Part shown: one piece after another, positions 1 through 8,708 of the stretch
How the letters are laid out: each line of letters opens with the position of its first letter
Numbering within the stretch: the stretch's first letter is position 1
Assembly (NCBI GenBank): GCA_026398635.1
Contig: JAPLSM010000210.1
Span: forward strand, 1 to 40,860
DNA from: Spirochaetota bacterium
Lineage (GTDB): Bacteria; Spirochaetota; Spirochaetia; SZUA-6; Fen-1364
DNA length: 40,860 bases
Direction of reading: 5' to 3'
Notes under the pieces: generated by a model
Seen by the model: only the letters and a program-made list of their open reading frames with translations
Databases searched by the model: none
What the model was told of the DNA's origin: nothing
Program-made: the position numbers and the translations under genes

Positions 1-543
1 GACCACCCCGTTGCCGTCGAACATGCGGCCCTGGCCCTTCTCCTCGGCGGTCGGCTCGGCGAGCCGGGTGCCCTGGAGCTCCCGCTTGTCCATGTAGGCG
101 GGGATTTCGAAGGGCGGCTTCACGATGGCCCAGGAGTTGTACGACTCGACGGGGAAGTGAACCCGGACGCCGAGCACCTTCTTCCCCCCGATCTCCGTGT
201 CCGTGCCGGGGATCTTCTTCGCGGTGGACTTGACCGCCGCCTCCTTGGTCATCGAGAAGCTCTGGTTGGCGACCGACCGGGACGAGGACGCGAGAAGCAC
301 TTCCCAGTTATCGAGGGCGAGGGAGGTCTTCATGGCCGCTCTCTCCTCGTCGGTGAACGAGGATCCGGCGACCTCGCTGAAGTCCATGACAGTCGCCTTG
401 TTCTCGTTCGGCACCTTGCCGGTCCCGATGGTGACGTCCGCCGCGAGCTTGGCGAAATCGACGAGCACCGACGTGTCGGCGAACGCCGCCGCTCCGCAGC
501 AAAGCAGAATCGTGATGACTGCGCCCGTGAACAGCCGTTTCAT
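1..543 (-). CDS. flaA: Flagellar filament outer-layer protein FlaA (C-terminus cut by window edge)
   Basis: The N-terminal 181 residues of a spirochaetal FlaA, the sheath protein around the FlaB core of periplasmic flagella. It opens with a signal peptide (MKRLFTGAVITILLCCGAAAFA, likely cleaved after AFA, consistent with export rather than flagellar type III secretion). The mature start SVLVDFAKL, then NKATVMDFSEVAGSSFTDEE and the block WEVLLASSSRSVANQS, match my recollection of treponemal FlaA. The reading frame is open to base 1, so the rest lies outside the window. The ATG at 543 is supported by an AAAGGAG ribosome site at 550-556 and by a strong promoter at 584-611. It lies 64 bp downstream of the GerMN gene; the order amidase, GerMN, flaA resembles the T. 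pallidum flaA locus as I remember it. FlaA paralogues exist in spirochaetes, so which copy this is cannot be said. Confidence 0.88.
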   Translation of the reverse strand, partial: MKRLFTGAVITILLCCGAAAFADTSVLVDFAKLAADVTIGTGKVPNENKATVMDFSEVAGSSFTDEERAAMKTSLALDNWEVLLASSSRSVANQSFSMTKEAAVKSTAKKIPGTDTEIGGKKVLGVRVHFPVESYNSWAIVKPPFEIPAYMDKRELQGTRLAEPTAEEKGQGRMFDGNGVV

Positions 544-583: not shown

Positions 584-620
584 AGTATAGTATCCAGGAA
601 GTCTCTGTCAACGTTTTTTT
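584..620 (-). promoter_or_regulatory. Sigma-70 type promoter of flaA with upstream A-tract
   Basis: On the minus strand, TTGACA (606-611) and TATACT (584-589) are separated by 16 bp, close to the housekeeping consensus. A run of seven A residues (614-620) just upstream of the -35 box resembles an UP-element A-tract. The start of transcription would fall near 577, giving a leader of about 34 nt that contains AAAGGAG. The -35 box contains the TGA stop codon (608-610) of the preceding gene. The match is to sigma-70, not to the sigma-28 motifs of many flagellin genes, in line with flaA being sigma-70 driven in treponemes (recalled). Confidence 0.75.
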
Positions 621-1135
621 CCCTCCTCGAGGACACGCGGCGTTTGCCCGTCGACCGAGAAAACGATCTCGCGGATCCAGCGGAAGTTGAATCGGATCGC
701 CCGGCCCAGCGCGGCTGCCGCCTCGCCCAGCGGGAGCGGTGCCAGCAGGTCCGGTATCGCCGCCTGCGCGGAGAGGTCCACGTACAGGACCCCCCGGCGC
801 ACCATCAGCGTGCGTATGGTCGCCGTCGGGGGAAACAGGCGCGCCGTGCCATGCCGGGCCGAACCGAGCAGCGCCGCCTCGACGAGCTCGCGCGCGTCAC
901 GGTCGGCGTCCCGGTGCCGGGGAAGGAATCGCTCCTCCGCGACCAGCCGGGCGGCCTTCCCCGCTGCGTTGCGGGTCGCGGTGGACGGGAAGAAGAGCAC
1001 CCGGCGGACCCGCGCTGCCGGGGACACGAGGAACAGGGCGAGCGAGAGCGCGAAGAGCGCGAGGAACGCCGCACCGACAGCCGCCGGGCGTCCGCGTACC
1101 CTCATTCGGGCGAGCAGCTTGATCCTATCGATCAC
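608..1135 (-). CDS. Membrane-anchored GerMN domain protein
   Basis: Protein of 175 aa. A single membrane segment (about residues 18-37, VGAAFLALFALSLALFLVS) precedes a GerMN-type domain: ARELVEAALLGS, LFPPTATIRTLMVRRGVLYVDLS and a closing strand IREIVFSVDGQTP. GerMN domains occur in spore germination GerM and in LpqB-like envelope proteins and are often found beside murein hydrolases; no enzymatic activity is known for them. I chose GTG at 1135, which overlaps the amidase stop by 11 bp and has AGGGAG six bases upstream. A longer frame begins at 1183 but would overlap the amidase gene more deeply, and an ATG at 1105 would shorten the cytoplasmic tail. It probably sits in the inner membrane facing the periplasm and may act with the amidase encoded just upstream. 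Confidence 0.72.
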   Translation of the reverse strand: MIDRIKLLARMRVRGRPAAVGAAFLALFALSLALFLVSPAARVRRVLFFPSTATRNAAGKAARLVAEERFLPRHRDADRDARELVEAALLGSARHGTARLFPPTATIRTLMVRRGVLYVDLSAQAAIPDLLAPLPLGEAAAALGRAIRFNFRWIREIVFSVDGQTPRVLEEGKKR

Positions 1136-2159
1136 CGGAACTCCCTGCGCGTTCGAAACGCGCGACGAAGGCAACGATGCCATTGTACAGGCCCTCGGCG
1201 AGGTCCATCAAGTACGCCGGGTCGGCGAGGTGCGCTGCCTCCGCGGGGTTGGTGACGTAGCCGACCTCGACGAGCACGGCCGGCATCCTGCTGTTGCGTA
1301 CCACCGCCCACGCCTCTTCCTTGAGGCCCCGGTTCGGGCTCACCGTCCCTACTTGTGCATCGATCGCCTGGAGGATCTCTCGCGCGAGCACCACGCTCTC
1401 CACCGAGATCTCCTCCTCGAGCATGCTGTTCAGGATCGGCAGCAGGTCGGGGTCCCCCTCCGCATCCTGGGACCCGATGAGCGTGCGCCGGTAGGTGGGC
1501 GGCAGGTACCACACCTCGAACCCGTTTGCCTTGCTCCGGGCGGACGCGTTCGCGTGGATCGAGACGTACAGGACCGCGTCGCCCAGCTTCTCCTGCAGGG
1601 CGTTGGCCGTCGCGGCACGCGCCTCGAGCTCGATGAACGTGTCGTCGGATCGCGTGAGCACCACGTCCTTTCCCGGCAGTACGGAACGAAGGCGTTCGGC
1701 GACCCCGAGGGCCAGCTGGAGCACCACGTCCTTCTCCTGAAGCGCCAGCGGCTTCCCGTCGACGGTCCTGCTGCCGACGCCTCCCGGGTCCTTTCCCCCG
1801 TGCCCGGGGTCGAGCACGATTGCGGCGATGCGCAGGCCCGCCTCGGGCCGCTCCGTCCTCATGCGCGTCACGGCAGCCGTGACCGCCTCCACGGCGCCGG
1901 CGTCGAAGACGATCCTGCCATTCTCCCGGCGGGGTGCCGGGATGTCCAGCCGCTCGGTGTAGTTGATCAACACGAAGGGTGTCCCGACCTGGAACGCGAT
2001 CCGGTCGGATCCCGCGAGGATGACGCCGGCCTCCCGCAATGGATCCCACTCGCAGGTCGCGTCGATCTGCTCGAGCAGCTCCAGGAGCTCCCGGTCAGCA
2101 GCGGGCGCCGCGAGCACCGGAAGCAGGAGGAGCACGAGCATCAGCAACCCTCGCCTCAT
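1125..2159 (-). CDS. N-acetylmuramoyl-L-alanine amidase (Amidase_3)
   Basis: A 344-aa exported zinc amidase that cleaves the MurNAc-L-Ala bond in peptidoglycan. A signal peptide (MRRGLLMLVLLLLPVLAAPA) is followed by an N-terminal region of about 110 residues without a clear match, then the Amidase_3 catalytic domain from about residue 113. The expected metal-ligand blocks are visible: IVLDPGHGGKDPG (His), TFIELEARA (Glu), VLYVSIHANAS (His) and AVLVEVGYVTNPAEA (catalytic Glu). Its ATG overlaps the ATP-grasp stop as ATGA, so translation is probably coupled to the sugar-modification operon. Candidate roles are murein remodelling at division or around periplasmic flagella; neither is shown by the sequence. 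Confidence 0.9.
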   Translation of the reverse strand: MRRGLLMLVLLLLPVLAAPAADRELLELLEQIDATCEWDPLREAGVILAGSDRIAFQVGTPFVLINYTERLDIPAPRRENGRIVFDAGAVEAVTAAVTRMRTERPEAGLRIAAIVLDPGHGGKDPGGVGSRTVDGKPLALQEKDVVLQLALGVAERLRSVLPGKDVVLTRSDDTFIELEARAATANALQEKLGDAVLYVSIHANASARSKANGFEVWYLPPTYRRTLIGSQDAEGDPDLLPILNSMLEEEISVESVVLAREILQAIDAQVGTVSPNRGLKEEAWAVVRNSRMPAVLVEVGYVTNPAEAAHLADPAYLMDLAEGLYNGIVAFVARFERAGSSGDR

Positions 2160-3742
2160 CGGTGCAGCACCCCCGTACCCCCGGCGAGCGAGTCGGCCAC
2201 GTAGGCTCCCGCCTGAACGCTACCCCGCAGGAAAGCACGCCAGAACACGCCGCCGAGGGCGAAAGTGCCGGTCGAGGAAACGTTCACCAGCCGGATGATT
2301 CCCCGGTCGGCAAGCTGTCCGACGGCTTTCCGCAGGGACAGTCCGTGCCAGTCGCGGGAAGGCTCGTTCGCCAGGCCGGGCAGTGCCAGAACCTCGACCG
2401 GAGCGCCTGCCCTCGCGGCAACCGGATCACCGAGGAACGCCGGCATGGCTGCGAGCGCGGAACGATCGTCGTCGCGTTCGAGCGTGAATGCCGGGTGAGG
2501 GCAGCCGGACGGGTCCCCGAAGAGGAACGCATCGGTTCGGTCGTTCCCCGGCTCGAGCCGCACGAGGATGAGCGCTGCCGCCGCTTCCGCGGCCGTGACC
2601 GCCCTTTCCCGCGACTCGTGAGATGCGATCACATTGCCGGCCTTCTCGACATTGCTGGTGGGGAACACGGTCCGCCGGCCGACCCCGGTGAGCACGAACA
2701 CCTCCCGCACGCCCGTTGTCGTCCTCGCCTCCGCGACCCCCTCCACGGACCGGACGACGCCCGGAATCGATATGAAGGCCCGCTCCGCTGATGTCCAGCG
2801 CCTTTCGGGGGAAAGGTTTCCGGGCTCGAGACCCGCGGCCACTCGGAGCGCCGCCTCGGTCACGTCCACCCCGCTCGCGAGCGGGAACGTCCAGCCGGAC
2901 ATGTAGCCGCCCGATAGCCGGGCGGCGATCTCGCCGACCATGGGTCCGCGGGCGGTCAGCTTGATGTCCCCCTTGGCTGCGCCGTTGTCGATCCCGAGCA
3001 CCCGGATGCCGTCCCGGAAGACTCTCTCCACCGACCGGCGTTCTGCATCGGGAAGCGCGGTCCACATGGTGTGGCCCATCTCGACGAAGAAGGGGGGGAA
3101 ACGGATGATCCGGTCGGCCACGCCGCACACGGTCGCCTGCCCGCGCCAGACGATCGCATCCAGGCTCAGCTCGGGGCCGTCCATGTACTCCTCAATCACA
3201 GCCCTGCCCGAGCGCGAGGCAGCCATCGCGACACGGCAAGCCTCCGGCAGTTCATCGCGCGCGTCGACCCGGCGTACCGCCCGGGAGCCCATGCTGTCCA
3301 CCGGCTTCACCACGAGCGGCAGGTGCAGGTTTCCGGCAGCGTCCGCGGGATCGCCCGTCCCGTCGTACTCGACGAAGTCCGGGCAGGGCACGCCGGCGTC
3401 GCGCAGCGCGCGGCGCATCCGGTACTTGTCCGTTGCACGCTCGGCTGCCGCAAGAGGGACGCCGGGCATGCCGAGCCGTTCGCAGACGTACGACACGGTC
3501 GTCGAGAAGTCGGTCCCGGCCGTGAAGACCGCGTCGAGCCCCTCGTTTTCCCTCAAGCACCGGGCCAGGGCGAGCATGCCTTCCCGGTCCTTCAGGTCGA
3601 CGTGCTCGAACCGATCCGCGAGCGACCGGCAGGGAGCCTCCGGGTTGGCGTCCGCGGCCACGGTCCGCCATCCCATGCGCCGGGCTGCCCGCAGGGACGG
3701 GCCCTGCATGATGCCCGCGCCGAGAACAAGCACCGTGGTCAT
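2156..3742 (-). CDS. ATP-grasp carboxylate-amine ligase-like protein with C-terminal extension
   Basis: Protein of 528 aa. It opens with the pre-ATP-grasp Rossmann-like motif VLVLGAGIMQGPSLRAARR, continues with an ATP-binding region (TDKYRMRRALRDAGVPCP, LVVKPVDSMGSRAV, VIEEYMDGPELSLDA) and a metal-binding-like segment (IKLTARGPMVGEIAARLSGG). This is the PurK/carbamoyl-phosphate-synthase-like class that joins a carboxylate to an amine or thiol through an acyl phosphate. Residues from about 395 to the end are an unassigned extension (begins near LFGDPSGCPHPAF). Start: ATG at 3742, overlapping the upstream stop as ATGA with GAGGA just before it; the frame stays open far upstream but that part is a shadow of the fusion gene. 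The substrate is unknown; context suggests a sugar or sugar-acid intermediate. Confidence 0.78.
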   Translation of the reverse strand: MTTVLVLGAGIMQGPSLRAARRMGWRTVAADANPEAPCRSLADRFEHVDLKDREGMLALARCLRENEGLDAVFTAGTDFSTTVSYVCERLGMPGVPLAAAERATDKYRMRRALRDAGVPCPDFVEYDGTGDPADAAGNLHLPLVVKPVDSMGSRAVRRVDARDELPEACRVAMAASRSGRAVIEEYMDGPELSLDAIVWRGQATVCGVADRIIRFPPFFVEMGHTMWTALPDAERRSVERVFRDGIRVLGIDNGAAKGDIKLTARGPMVGEIAARLSGGYMSGWTFPLASGVDVTEAALRVAAGLEPGNLSPERRWTSAERAFISIPGVVRSVEGVAEARTTTGVREVFVLTGVGRRTVFPTSNVEKAGNVIASHESRERAVTAAEAAAALILVRLEPGNDRTDAFLFGDPSGCPHPAFTLERDDDRSALAAMPAFLGDPVAARAGAPVEVLALPGLANEPSRDWHGLSLRKAVGQLADRGIIRLVNVSSTGTFALGGVFWRAFLRGSVQAGAYVADSLAGGTGVLHR

Positions 3743-5535
3743 CCCGTCCTCAGCGCGTAGGCCTCGAAGGTGTCGCCGAGGCGGGCGAGGCGACTCACGG
3801 CTGATACGACGATCCGCCCGGGTCCGCCTGATCTGCCCAGCCGGCCGATAAAGCCCGGGAAACGCTCGGGGTGATGGCCGGTCACCCTGACCCTGGCGAG
3901 GCGGAACCCGTATCTCGCCAGCAGGCGGCGCAGGCCTGCCGGCCTGAGAATGATGCAGTGGTCGGTCGGACTCGCGTCGAGGAACGAGCGCCGCGAAGCG
4001 AGCGCGGAGATGCCGCGGCCGTTCGGCGTCGAGAACGCGAGCACGGCTCCCGGGCCGAGCAGGCCTGCCAGCCGCCGCAGCGCACCGTCCAGGTTTCCGA
4101 GGTGCTCGATCACGTACCAGAGCGTGATGCCGTCGATCCGGGCAGCCGGGACGTGCTGACGCTCGAGGCGTTCGAACGGCAGGCGCGCTGCCGGCAGCTT
4201 CAGCACTCTCCGCACGTGCTCGACGGCATCCTCCGACACGTCGATCCCGAAGCACGGCCAGCCGGCACCCCGCAGCGCCGCGAGGAAGGGACCGTAGGCG
4301 CAGCCGATGTCGACAATGGTCCCGCGCAGCCGGCTCTTTGCCCTGCGGCCGAGCACGCGCTCCATGACCGTCACCCGGTCGCGCCCGACCGCCTCGATGG
4401 ACGCGAAATCCTGGAGGTAGGTCCTGCCGTACTGCGCCCGGTATTCCTCGAAGAAATATCCCCTCGCGTAGGTCCGGCCCGCCTCGGCGAATGACTGGAG
4501 ATAATCGATCCGGCAGCCTGGGCAGTGACGATAGGTGCGGAGCGGGAACCTGCCGATCACCGCGCCCGTTCTGCCGCAGGCGGGGCATCCGCTGCCGGAT
4601 CCGGGCGACAGCATCCCGAGATGGCCTGCCAGGGTGCCGCGGGGGGAAGCCGCAAGTCTTTCCCGGAAGTTCTTCACGCCGGCGGCGAGTTTCCGGGGAT
4701 CGGAGAGCAGGCCGTCCAACGTTCGCAGCCTGACCCGGCGAACGCCGATTTCGGGGATCCCCGCCGAGCGCGCGAGAGCCCTGTGGTAGGTTGTCGGGTT
4801 GAGGAGCACGACCGGGAGGCCGGCGGCGAGCGCTTCGAGCGCCGAAACACCGAAGTGCGTCACCAGGAGGTCGCGGCCGCCGAAGAGCGGCTGCAGCCGG
4901 CGGACGCCGCGCACCAGGTTAATTCCTGCGGGCCACGAGCGATTCCCGAAGAGGGGGCCGGCCACAACGGTGACATTCCGCGCGGTGAGCAGTCCCCGGC
5001 CGATCACCGCTCTCAGAAAGGTCCCCGTCAGGTCGGGGACATCTTCCCCCCCGAAGCTCACGAGCACCCTGGTGGGCCGGGCCCTGCCCTGCCGCGCACG
5101 TTCGGGACCGACGCGCAGCCCGAGATACGAGAGCGAAGCCGTGTTTGCAGGCTCCCCGCCGGGAACCTGCGGCAGGGCATCGATGAGGTACGGTGCGCCC
5201 CGACGCGCTTCGCCGCCCTCGTCGAGGCAGACCACTGTTCCGAGCCGTTCAAGTGCCGCGAGCTCCGCGCGGTTCGTTCGCCGCTTGTCCACGAGCACGA
5301 TGTCCCATCTTCCCCGTTCCGCGCCGGGATCGATGATCCGGGGCCGCCTGTCGGCGGGGAATCGCCCGAGCAGGTTTTGGAGGGACGCGAGAGCGGTGTC
5401 ATCAAGCCAGCCCGGGTGGAATGCGCAGCCCCTGCCCAACGCGCGGGCAAGCCGGACGCCGCGCACGAGGTGACCCATGCCCTCTCCCCCACCGCCCGCG
5501 GGCACGAGCAGGTACCTGCGCACGGCGTCAGCCAC
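3739..5535 (-). CDS. Fusion: PseG-like glycosyl hydrolase/transferase plus zinc-ribbon SAM methyltransferase
   Basis: Protein of 598 aa with two enzymatic halves. Residues 1-310 are GT-B-like and resemble PseG, the UDP-sugar hydrolase of pseudaminic acid synthesis: an N-terminal glycine-rich loop with GMGHLVRGVRLARAL, the strand RVLVSFGGEDVPDLT, and the C-lobe motif GVSALEALAAGLPVVLLN. At about 317-345 lies a four-cysteine ribbon (CPACG, then CPGC). Residues from about 365 to the end form a class I methyltransferase with motif I VDIGCAYGPFLAALRGAG near 410 and ITLWYVIEHLGN. Ribbon plus methyltransferase is a known pairing in sugar C- or N-methyltransferases. The GTG start at 5535 overlaps the cytidylyltransferase stop by 8 bp and has GGGAGG upstream; an ATG at 5574 is possible. 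The exact substrate is not deducible. Confidence 0.72.
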   Translation of the reverse strand: MADAVRRYLLVPAGGGGEGMGHLVRGVRLARALGRGCAFHPGWLDDTALASLQNLLGRFPADRRPRIIDPGAERGRWDIVLVDKRRTNRAELAALERLGTVVCLDEGGEARRGAPYLIDALPQVPGGEPANTASLSYLGLRVGPERARQGRARPTRVLVSFGGEDVPDLTGTFLRAVIGRGLLTARNVTVVAGPLFGNRSWPAGINLVRGVRRLQPLFGGRDLLVTHFGVSALEALAAGLPVVLLNPTTYHRALARSAGIPEIGVRRVRLRTLDGLLSDPRKLAAGVKNFRERLAASPRGTLAGHLGMLSPGSGSGCPACGRTGAVIGRFPLRTYRHCPGCRIDYLQSFAEAGRTYARGYFFEEYRAQYGRTYLQDFASIEAVGRDRVTVMERVLGRRAKSRLRGTIVDIGCAYGPFLAALRGAGWPCFGIDVSEDAVEHVRRVLKLPAARLPFERLERQHVPAARIDGITLWYVIEHLGNLDGALRRLAGLLGPGAVLAFSTPNGRGISALASRRSFLDASPTDHCIILRPAGLRRLLARYGFRLARVRVTGHHPERFPGFIGRLGRSGGPGRIVVSAVSRLARLGDTFEAYALRTG

Positions 5536-6220
5536 CGGCCGGCCCTCCCGCGCCCCTGCTTCGACACCAGGCAACCACCGAGTCCGCTTCGAGAGGTTCC
5601 CCCCGGTAGAGGTCCGCGAACAGCCGGCATACCCGTTCGTAATCCTCGGGCGTGTCGACCGTTACACGCGCCTCGGGCATGCGGAGCTCCGGCGGCGCCT
5701 GTTCCTCCAGGATGCTGAACCGGTCGGGATGGCGGTATAGGAACGTGGTGAGATGTTCCCGCTCATCGATACGGGCTGCCTCGCGCTCGGCAACGAACAG
5801 CGCGCCGGCCTCGATCACTTCCACGCCTGTGCCCCAGGGGCAGCCGAGAAAATGGCTGAGGTCCGGGCGCCGAGCCTCGTGGAGCGCGAGAATGTCCCGG
5901 CCAAGGCGCGGGCAGGTCAGCGGGTTGTCCCCCGTGGCCCGCACCACCCTCTGCACGTCGAGCCGTCGCGCTGCGTCGCCGAAGCGGGCCAGCACGTCGT
6001 CGGGATGGCCGGCGATCGCCAGAAAACCGCATGCCGCAGCCTCGGGGGCGAGGGCATCGACGCTCTCGGGGTCGGTCAGCAGTGCCCGGACTTCAGCGGG
6101 GATGCGCGCCATCGCGCGCATCACGTGACCGATGACCGTGCTGCCCGCGAGCGGAAGCAGGGCCTTCCGTGGGAGACGGGTCGAAGCGAGCCGGACCTGC
6201 ACGAAGATCCCGGTCCGCAT
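5528..6220 (-). CDS. SpsF-type cytidylyltransferase (CMP-sugar synthetase-like)
   Basis: Protein of 230 aa of the CTP_transf_3 fold, in the branch named after Bacillus SpsF. The nucleotide-binding signature FVQVRLASTRLPRKALLPL is near the N-terminus, followed by RVVRATGDNPLTCP (metal/nucleotide-binding Asp) and a C-terminal VTVDTPEDYERV. Relatives activate acidic sugars such as nonulosonates or KDO as CMP derivatives, or occur in spore-coat and flagellar glycan clusters without proven chemistry. It starts directly after the TAA of the glycosyltransferase-like gene, so it is in the same transcript. Together with the PseG-like neighbour it suggests that a CMP-activated sugar is produced, but no sugar synthase (NeuB/PseI type) is present in the window. 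Confidence 0.8.
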   Translation of the reverse strand: MRTGIFVQVRLASTRLPRKALLPLAGSTVIGHVMRAMARIPAEVRALLTDPESVDALAPEAAACGFLAIAGHPDDVLARFGDAARRLDVQRVVRATGDNPLTCPRLGRDILALHEARRPDLSHFLGCPWGTGVEVIEAGALFVAEREAARIDEREHLTTFLYRHPDRFSILEEQAPPELRMPEARVTVDTPEDYERVCRLFADLYRGEPLEADSVVAWCRSRGAGGPAGG

Positions 6221-7177
6221 TTAGGCGAACTCCCAGCCTGCCACGAGGTCCCTGGGGTCCAGCCGATAGCGGTACCGGTTCCGCCTCACCCATTCGCGCG
6301 CGACGCGGAATTCCTTCACCGCGTAGAGTGGCCCGGTGTCGGAACGCGCCATGTACTCGGGCAGCCTCCAGGCGGGCAGCACGCCGCAATCGCGGCGGAG
6401 ACGCACCGCAAGCCCCCGGAGCCAGAACCGCTTGTAGCTTTCGTCGGGTGTCGCGTCGTCCGCCGGGGGTTGCGTCGAGTAGGTGATGCCGAGCCCCGTG
6501 AGGCATCGCACGGACTCCCCCCACAGGTGCGCGCGGAACCCGAAGTCCAGCTTCTGCCAGTGGGGGTTGGTCAGGGACGGCTCGAAGCCGCCGAGCCGGG
6601 CGAACCTCTCCCCGTGATAGATGCCGCTGTAGTCGAAGGGGAACAGGGTACGCTCGCCGTCACGGGACGGTACGTGCCAGTCGAGTGACAGCCGGCCTTT
6701 CGCGAGCCTCGGCACCTGCAGCGTCGGCATCACCTCGCCCCGGGCATTGCGTGCGAGCGGAACGGCGCACACCGCCGGCTCGGTGTCGAGTCGTGACACG
6801 AGCCCGGCCGGCAAGGACGATACCCGGGCATCGCTCCAGAGGCAGAACACCCGTCGGGCGCGGGCCTCGGAGATCCCCACGTTCACGCGCTCTCCCGGCG
6901 TCGCGGGTCCGGACAGCACGAGAAACCTCACCTCGGGAAACTCCCGGGAATGCGATTCGAGGTCGTAGGAGACCTCGGGTCCGCCGACCCAGAGGATTTC
7001 GCCGACTCCGGTCGCCTGGAGCTCGGCGAGCAGCGCCCCCCGGAAGAGACGGTCCCCGCGGCTGAGGACGAGGAACGTGAGATCGTAGGGGTAGCGGCGC
7101 ACCCGGTCCCAGCGCTTGCCGCCGATCACGGTGTAGGGAACCGGCACCGCGCTAGAAGTTGAAGGTGTAATATTCAT
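6221..7177 (-). CDS. Putative glycosyltransferase (GT2-like)
   Basis: Protein of 318 aa from the ATG at 7177. After a short N-terminal stretch it shows a nucleotide-sugar-transferase-like fold: YDLTFLVLSRGDRLFRGALL, then GERVNVGISEARARRVFCLW followed by SDAR in the place where GT2 enzymes carry an acidic metal-binding motif, and a later GGFEPSLTNPHW block typical of GT2 enzymes. No membrane helix is seen, so it is probably cytoplasmic. It overlaps the spiro-SPASM gene by 26 bp. The start is uncertain: a GTG at 7147 just after the upstream stop would remove 10 residues, and neither has a clear ribosome site. The call rests on fold-level similarity and gene neighbours; donor and acceptor are unknown. 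Confidence 0.6.
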   Translation of the reverse strand: MNITPSTSSAVPVPYTVIGGKRWDRVRRYPYDLTFLVLSRGDRLFRGALLAELQATGVGEILWVGGPEVSYDLESHSREFPEVRFLVLSGPATPGERVNVGISEARARRVFCLWSDARVSSLPAGLVSRLDTEPAVCAVPLARNARGEVMPTLQVPRLAKGRLSLDWHVPSRDGERTLFPFDYSGIYHGERFARLGGFEPSLTNPHWQKLDFGFRAHLWGESVRCLTGLGITYSTQPPADDATPDESYKRFWLRGLAVRLRRDCGVLPAWRLPEYMARSDTGPLYAVKEFRVAREWVRRNRYRYRLDPRDLVAGWEFA

Positions 7178-8708
7178 CGCAGCGCCCGCAGATGCCCGGC
7201 AGGTCACCCTGCACGTGCCGGGCGTACTGCCGTCCCCCCCGCTCCCAGATGCCGGCCAGGTCGTCGGTGAAAGCGTTGCCCAGGGCTTCGTCGGCGCGCA
7301 GGTCTTCGCGGCAAAGTGGCACGGTGCCGTCGAGGAGGATCACCACGTCGCGACGCAGGTGCCAGCACGGGAACCGGGACAGGGGCGAGAGATCGGCTAC
7401 GCGCCGGTCGGCGATGGCCCCCGCAAACGCGTCGTACTTCTGGATGATGACGTGTTCCGTCCGCTGCTTCCATTCCCGGTAGAAGGTTTCGAGATCCTCC
7501 TCGTTCTCCTTCATCCGGACAGCCTGCACGTGCGCAGAGTGCGGGAACAGCGCGAGGAGCTCCCCGGCGGTCGCCGTCGCCTCGGCGAAACCTTCGCCTC
7601 TCAGGCCGGCGTACACCCCGGCAGTCGCCGCGTCGAGCGAGACGATCCAGGTGGGTTCCGTCGCACCCGGGGCAGAGGCGATCGATGCGAGGACGCCCGG
7701 ACGCCATCCCACTCCGCATGTCTCGACGAGGAGCCGGATGCCCGGCCGGCGGCGGGCGGCCGCCAGCAGGCGTTCGATGTCCGGGTGCAGGGATGGCTCG
7801 CCCCACAGGGAGATGCTGACCCAGGCGTCGTGCGCGAAGTCCTCGATCCGTTCGAGCAGCGTCTCGAAACGATCGACGGGCATCGTGCCGTGGAGCTTCC
7901 GGGGATCGCCCGCCGCGGCGGGATACGGGCAGAAGGAGCAGGATTGGGGGCATGCCGCGACGACCTGCACGTTGAAGAACGCCGGGAGCGTCCGGAGGAT
8001 GCCGGGATCGGCGTCCAGCGCCGCCATCACCGCCTCCGCGTCCGCGGCTCCCCGCCCCAGCAGCGCTTCGACGAGCCGGGCGTTCCGCTCGCAGTCCGCC
8101 GTGAGCGATGCCCTCAGAAGGCGCTGGTCCCTCGGGGCGAGCTCGGTCTCGATGTCGAAGGCGTTGATGTCCTTCTGGATGATCGTGAACAGCGTGTCCC
8201 GGCCGGGTGCGGTGCCGGCCAGCCCGGGAAGTCCTGTCGCGAGGGACTGCAGCCGTGAGATGACCTCGGTACGGAGAATCTCGGGCGTGAGACCGGTGGG
8301 ATAACCGTCCGCAAAGGTGTACTCGGCGAAGTACCGCCGGTGGCTGTCGTGCATCCGCGAGGCGACCCGGGTATCAAGCATCGGGCAATCCGCGAAGTAG
8401 TAGAAGATGTCGTCGTGACCCGAGCCGGCCTCGGCCAGCGCGGACAGCAGGTCGGAGGACGTCCAGGAGTCCCGGCGCACGACGCGGATGTCCGGTCCCG
8501 TCTCGAGCGCGCGGTCGGCCTGCGCCATCCCTGGCTCGGCCGACCCTGGACCTCCCTGTCCCCGGGATGCCAGCAGTACTACCCGGGGCGCGCCGGGGAG
8601 GTGTGCGGCCGCGGCGAGGCTGCGCTGGAGCGCCGAAGGCCCGCCTGCGAGGGGACGGGTCGCCGTGGATGAAAGATCGATGCCGTTGACCACCGCGATC
8701 GTGCTCAT
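7152..8708 (-). CDS. Spiro-SPASM radical SAM protein
   Basis: Protein of 518 aa. The first 230 residues or so resemble a nucleotidyltransferase-like domain (MSTIAVVNGIDLSS at the start, IFYYFADCPMLDT near residue 105). The radical SAM core carries C253-x3-C257-x2-C260 in CPQSCSFCPY, the 4Fe-4S ligands that cleave SAM. The C-terminal SPASM region has FPCWHL, TVPLCREDL and a final CGRCDEYYTFNF, suggesting auxiliary clusters. This architecture matches the spirochaete-restricted spiro-SPASM family (TIGR04321 as I recall). It is the first gene of a seven-gene operon with overlapping reading frames. I chose ATG at 8708 because MSTIAVVNGID looks like a natural start; a frame from 8747 is possible. 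Its substrate, peptide or sugar, is unknown. Confidence 0.82.
   Translation of the reverse strand: MSTIAVVNGIDLSSTATRPLAGGPSALQRSLAAAAHLPGAPRVVLLASRGQGGPGSAEPGMAQADRALETGPDIRVVRRDSWTSSDLLSALAEAGSGHDDIFYYFADCPMLDTRVASRMHDSHRRYFAEYTFADGYPTGLTPEILRTEVISRLQSLATGLPGLAGTAPGRDTLFTIIQKDINAFDIETELAPRDQRLLRASLTADCERNARLVEALLGRGAADAEAVMAALDADPGILRTLPAFFNVQVVAACPQSCSFCPYPAAAGDPRKLHGTMPVDRFETLLERIEDFAHDAWVSISLWGEPSLHPDIERLLAAARRRPGIRLLVETCGVGWRPGVLASIASAPGATEPTWIVSLDAATAGVYAGLRGEGFAEATATAGELLALFPHSAHVQAVRMKENEEDLETFYREWKQRTEHVIIQKYDAFAGAIADRRVADLSPLSRFPCWHLRRDVVILLDGTVPLCREDLRADEALGNAFTDDLAGIWERGGRQYARHVQGDLPGICGRCDEYYTFNF

Follow-up and report, generated by a model that had tools for sequence, protein, structure and literature searches.

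A spirochaete gene cluster that probably forms the core of a nonulosonic-acid pathway for flagellin glycosylation

The enzyme set that makes CMP-legionaminic acid in Bacillus subtilis comprises SpsM, SpsC, SpsD, SpsG, SpsE and SpsF (PMC7439481), and Maf-dependent glycosylation of flagellins with pseudaminic or legionaminic acid is known from Aeromonas and Campylobacter. Closer to the organism considered here, the FlaB flagellins of Treponema denticola bear a 450.2 Da glycan that is essential for filament assembly (PMC9481697). A preliminary description of our locus suggested that its pathway might be undescribed; this stands for the genes, as the literature that we searched yielded no gene assignment for the T. 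denticola flagellin glycan and nothing on its acyl group, but not for the glycan itself, which was already known. Flagellin glycosylation has been reported in spirochaetes, the syphilis bacterium among them, and the cluster provides a gene list for a modification that is genetically unexplained.

The locus and its genome resemble the B. subtilis Sps system in having a PglF/CapD-like dehydratase, an SpsC-like aminotransferase, an SpsG-like hydrolase, a NeuB-type synthase and an SpsF-like cytidylyltransferase (PMC7439481). They differ from it in that the spirochaete genes come without a linked acetyltransferase and are accompanied by an ATP-grasp ligase, a methyltransferase, a GT-A protein and a spiro-SPASM protein, and in that the product, judged by co-occurrence, would go to flagella. 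As in the Aeromonas and Campylobacter systems, spirochaetes have both Maf (PF01973) and NeuB, which track flagellin; the spirochaete pathway genes, however, are scattered, fall below the Pse equivalog cut-offs and are joined to genes found only in spirochaetes.

The window (the whole stretch of DNA that was analysed, 40,860 nucleotides from a Spirochaetota bacterium) carries seven tightly packed genes and then flaA, all on the minus strand at the positions first given. Coordinates, junctions and domain searches bear out the contiguous seven-gene block, with flaA starting 64 bp after the GerMN stop codon. The features are as follows.

7152–8708, minus strand: spiro-SPASM protein, with a cytidylyltransferase-like N-terminal domain and a radical SAM/SPASM domain (TIGR04321)
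6221–7177, minus strand: GT2-like protein with a predicted GT-A glycosyltransferase fold (from the predicted structure)
5528–6220, minus strand: SpsF-like cytidylyltransferase, a putative CMP-sugar-acid synthetase (PF02348, 83 bits; 6oew, E = 7e-19)
3739–5535, minus strand: fusion of a PseG/SpsG-like sugar-nucleotide hydrolase domain and a zinc-ribbon-like SAM methyltransferase domain (PF13489, 84 bits)
2156–3742, minus strand: ATP-grasp ligase of the L-amino acid ligase type (LAL_C2; PF18603, PF13535)
1125–2159, minus strand: N-acetylmuramoyl-L-alanine amidase (Amidase_3; PF01520, 154.8 bits)
608–1183, minus strand: GerMN (Germane) domain protein (PF10646, 26.8 bits; alternative GTG start at 1135)
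584–611, minus strand: sigma-70-type flaA promoter, TTGACA-16-TATACT (11 of 12 consensus matches)
1–543, minus strand: flaA, periplasmic flagellar sheath protein, truncated by the contig end (PF04620, 94.6 bits)

The spiro-SPASM and GT2-like genes overlap by 26 bp, the GT2-like and cytidylyltransferase genes meet at 0 bp, the cytidylyltransferase and PseG-like–methyltransferase genes overlap by 8 bp, and overlaps of 4 bp each join the latter to the ATP-grasp gene and the ATP-grasp gene to the amidase gene. The range of 0–26 bp given previously holds at most junctions; the amidase and GerMN genes overlap by 11 bp or 59 bp, according to which GerMN start codon is used.

We compared 80 loci around spiro-SPASM genes and 60 more from across the phylum, using profiles made from the proteins of the window to annotate them. 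In the 80-locus set, 53 loci extend for 8 kb or more downstream, and in 47 of these all nine domains are present and point the same way, a gene order conserved far more than expected by chance. In other classes, the cluster is often reduced to spiro-SPASM, cytidylyltransferase and PseG-like domains. Many Treponema have the cytidylyltransferase, PseG-like and methyltransferase domains in a single protein; these include the candidate T. denticola ATCC 35405, in which one locus holds spiro-SPASM, the GT2-like gene and the three-domain fusion and the ATP-grasp gene lies about 0.3 Mb away. (The genomes treated here as T. denticola, T. putidum and T. pallidum are ones that we take to belong to these species.) Two Treponema loci (L098 and L110) lack the PseG-like, methyltransferase and ATP-grasp domains between the cytidylyltransferase and the amidase; these may lie elsewhere.

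The preliminary description had noted that the pathway would call for a NeuB or PseI synthase elsewhere in the genome. Searching the window's genome family by family, we found one NeuB-type synthase (PF03102, 214 bits; orthologues in other genomes of the class at E < 1e-99), the gene for which is split by an assembly break across two overlapping contig ends (the end of C171 and the start of C165 of genome G000). In this genome, neuB has as its divergent neighbour a gene for an HpcH/HpaI-type 2-keto-3-deoxy-acid aldolase (L005, 6889–7764), an enzyme that would be suitable for forming the acyl arm; at the other neuB loci that were fetched, the aldolase gene does not lie beside neuB, and we set it aside as a lead only. 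A CapD/PglF-like dehydratase gene and a PseC/SpsC-like aminotransferase gene are adjacent on another contig (C332), both with strong family matches and both below the PseB and PseC equivalog cut-offs. The PseG-like half of the fusion behaves similarly, scoring 20.4 bits against a cut-off of 153.55 for the PseG equivalog TIGR03590, so the stereochemistry of the sugar is not fixed by sequence. The GxGHxxR motif of this domain is invariant in 14 sequences and is the only PseG trait kept; a PDB profile search with the domain gave no PseG match. The putative CMP-sugar synthetase has the Leptospira cytidylyltransferase 6oew as its PDB match. The GT2-like protein has no Pfam match and no real match in a PDB profile search, and its placement rests on fold prediction (pLDDT 89), for which the best PDB matches are polypeptide GalNAc-transferases (E = 5.7e-12). 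A weak PADLOC match of the methyltransferase to mads_2 was rejected as a generic methyltransferase match. The genome also contains four matches each to Maf (PF01973) and to flagellin.

FlaB flagellins are probably glycosylated through a cytoplasmic nonulosonic-acid pathway, with the first five genes of the block as its spirochaete-specific core. From the observed gene order, domains, distribution and other pathway genes, we infer each chemical step and the step order, as well as the identity of the acyl donor and what the GT-A protein does. The dehydratase and aminotransferase encoded elsewhere in the genome would provide a UDP-4-amino-4,6-dideoxy sugar, and the ATP-grasp ligase would then join a hydroxy acid to its 4-amino group as an amide, replacing the usual acetyltransferase. 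The PseG/SpsG-like domain would take off UDP, and NeuB would condense the sugar with phosphoenolpyruvate, which would leave the acyl arm on N7. The SpsF-like enzyme would form the CMP-sugar, the methyltransferase would cap the acyl arm at some stage, and Maf-type transferases would place the sugar on FlaB. Spiro-SPASM, with what would be a second, degenerate cytidylyltransferase domain, may act as an accessory or scaffold protein for which radical SAM activity is optional.

The distribution of these genes follows that of flagella closely. Among 149 genomes from across the phylum, flagellin occurs in 149, Maf (PF01973) in 145, spiro-SPASM in 144 and NeuB in 141; the four genomes without Maf belong to one family of 1.0–1.5 Mb genomes, for which 'Borrelia-like' is our working label, and also lack spiro-SPASM and NeuB. 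Within the class, spiro-SPASM is encoded by 158 of 248 genomes, all 158 of which have flagellin, and is absent from all 50 genomes without flagellin. The remaining 40 genomes have flagellin without spiro-SPASM: the Borrelia-like family accounts for 29, and the other 11 are assemblies of which most are incomplete or fragmented. As these 11 retain Maf (11 of 11) and NeuB (9 of 11), spiro-SPASM is probably missing from the assembly. When 20 flagellin-less genomes were tested, 19 lacked Maf (with one weak sub-threshold match) and 19 lacked NeuB. Two families contain both states: in f58, genus g139 has all of the genes and g108 has none, and in f45, G315 has all of them and G156 and G208 none, which indicates more than one joint loss of the genes. 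Borrelia-like genomes have kept flagellin and lost spiro-SPASM, with NeuB, Maf and the ATP-grasp gene absent wherever tested (Maf and NeuB both absent in 12 of 12 class genomes). This loss represents a single clade with a reduced genome; the equally reduced candidate T. pallidum keeps all of the genes. Borrelia is an exception that is available for comparison, with the cluster in nearly all other flagellated spirochaetes. The co-occurrence with flagellin, NeuB and Maf upholds the earlier suggestion of a broadly conserved nonulosonate pathway tied to flagella, and the strength of the pattern suggests a role for the widely conserved, uncharacterised spiro-SPASM family.

The ATP-grasp gene shows the same distribution as spiro-SPASM, being present in 26 of 26 genomes with spiro-SPASM compared with 0 of 15 without (11 flagellin-less and 4 Borrelia-like). 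In other spirochaete classes, it is often located away from the cluster. Its product matches 4dim and the L-amino acid ligase 3vot in the PDB. Three proteins examined from other classes are fusions of the ligase with an FMN-dependent alpha-hydroxy-acid dehydrogenase (L215, 8294–10516; L216, 8419–10674; and, with a weaker match, L214, 8176–10377), which suggests hydroxy or keto acids as the partner of the ligase. No N-acetyltransferase of the PseH/SpsD type was seen in the cluster or beside the dehydratase–aminotransferase pair, and we propose the ATP-grasp enzyme as a candidate N-acyl ligase of the amino sugar that may replace the SpsD-type acetyltransferase. An amide-forming ligase in the place of the acetyltransferase is a specific prediction. 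The 4-amino group of the precursor sugar corresponds to N7 in the nine-carbon acid. The abstract of a 2017 report by Kurniyati is said to describe the T. denticola glycan as a mono-acetylated nonulosonate with a 2-methoxy-4,5,6-trihydroxyhexanoyl group on N7, and such a structure would need an amide ligase and a methyltransferase. The enzymes predicted here would be consistent with a nonulosonate of this reported kind, the hydroxyacyl arm of which is O-methylated and linked through an amide. Judged from the enzymes present, both methylation and amide formation are plausible, as had been suggested for an acidic sugar of unusual type. More tentatively, and at somewhat less than even chances, there may be a spirochaete-wide branch of nonulosonate synthesis in which an ATP-grasp hydroxyacyl amide arm is followed by O-methylation, organised around a cytidylyltransferase-like spiro-SPASM protein whose radical SAM function would be dispensable and lost many times and whose SPASM cysteines persist.

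Alternatively, the nonulosonate from this cluster could be destined not for flagellin but for lipopolysaccharide, capsule or some other glycan of the surface. In many bacteria, glycans of this kind are made with NeuB and CMP-sugar synthetases, and a dedicated gene cluster for nonulosonates exists in some Leptospira (PMC3438082), but near-perfect co-occurrence with flagellin and Maf and joint loss in flagellin-less lineages would not be expected of such a product, and we regard it as quite unlikely. We hold it to be very unlikely that the seven genes and flaA are one unit, remodelling peptidoglycan and placing a sugar on FlaA or murein as the periplasmic flagellum is installed. The amidase, GerMN and flaA genes do adjoin the cluster in most loci of the class; against this, the candidate T. 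denticola, the candidate T. pallidum and other classes have the sugar genes without these three. A flaA promoter with at least 10 of 12 matches occurs in 45 of 49 related loci, compared with 1.7 expected from shuffles and none found in a control stretch, and a near-perfect TTGACA-16-TATAAT lies between the GerMN gene and flaA across relatives. The flaA gene, which was first proposed to close the operon, has its own conserved promoter and is therefore a neighbouring unit. Nor is the FlaA protein a probable target of the glycan, as FlaB flagellins are named in published work and the title of Wyss 1998 (cited in PMC13144727) states that glycosylation in treponemes is found on flagellins and not on sheath proteins; for attachment to peptidoglycan, which had also been suggested, we found no evidence. 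In the flagellin nonulosonate pathway that we favour, the amidase, probably outside the sugar pathway, would be a conserved neighbour together with the GerMN protein and flaA, none of them a pathway enzyme.

That spiro-SPASM might instead be a peptide-modifying radical SAM/SPASM enzyme (a RiPP maturase), and the cluster product a modified peptide, is suggested by its SPASM domain and by a predicted fold resembling SuiB and other peptide maturases. The protein is a clear member of TIGR04321 (524.7 bits against a family cut-off of 250), and its predicted structure (pLDDT 91) matches the Leptospira cytidylyltransferase (6oew), BtrN and SuiB. However, the N-terminal half is cytidylyltransferase-like, although without the usual RLPxK loop, the neighbours are sugar enzymes and the radical SAM motif CxxxCxxC is missing from 42 of the 85 family members used for a tree, all of which makes a peptide product most improbable. 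The motif is intact in the window (CPQSCSFC) and in 76 of the 80 nearest loci, whereas only 23 of the 61 loci in the wider set have it intact; the four SPASM cysteines, by contrast, are kept in 139 of 141 sequences, including proteins in which the radical SAM cysteines are gone (for example, L119, L129, L130 and L140). The tree, made by a rapid method from an alignment that left out the motif columns, has long branches; its well-supported branches require at least 9 changes of the motif, which we read as losses because regain is unlikely. Among the genomes that have lost it are the candidate T. pallidum Nichols and relatives of T. denticola. Since glycosylation is reported for the flagellins of T. 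pallidum, radical chemistry would not be needed for flagellin glycosylation, and the repeated loss of the cysteines suggests that it cannot be essential, contrary to its place as a necessary part of the pathway first proposed. The literature that we searched held no paper naming the TIGR04321 family, of which the window's protein is a member; the link of this family to flagella and the repeated loss of its radical SAM motif come from the present analysis.
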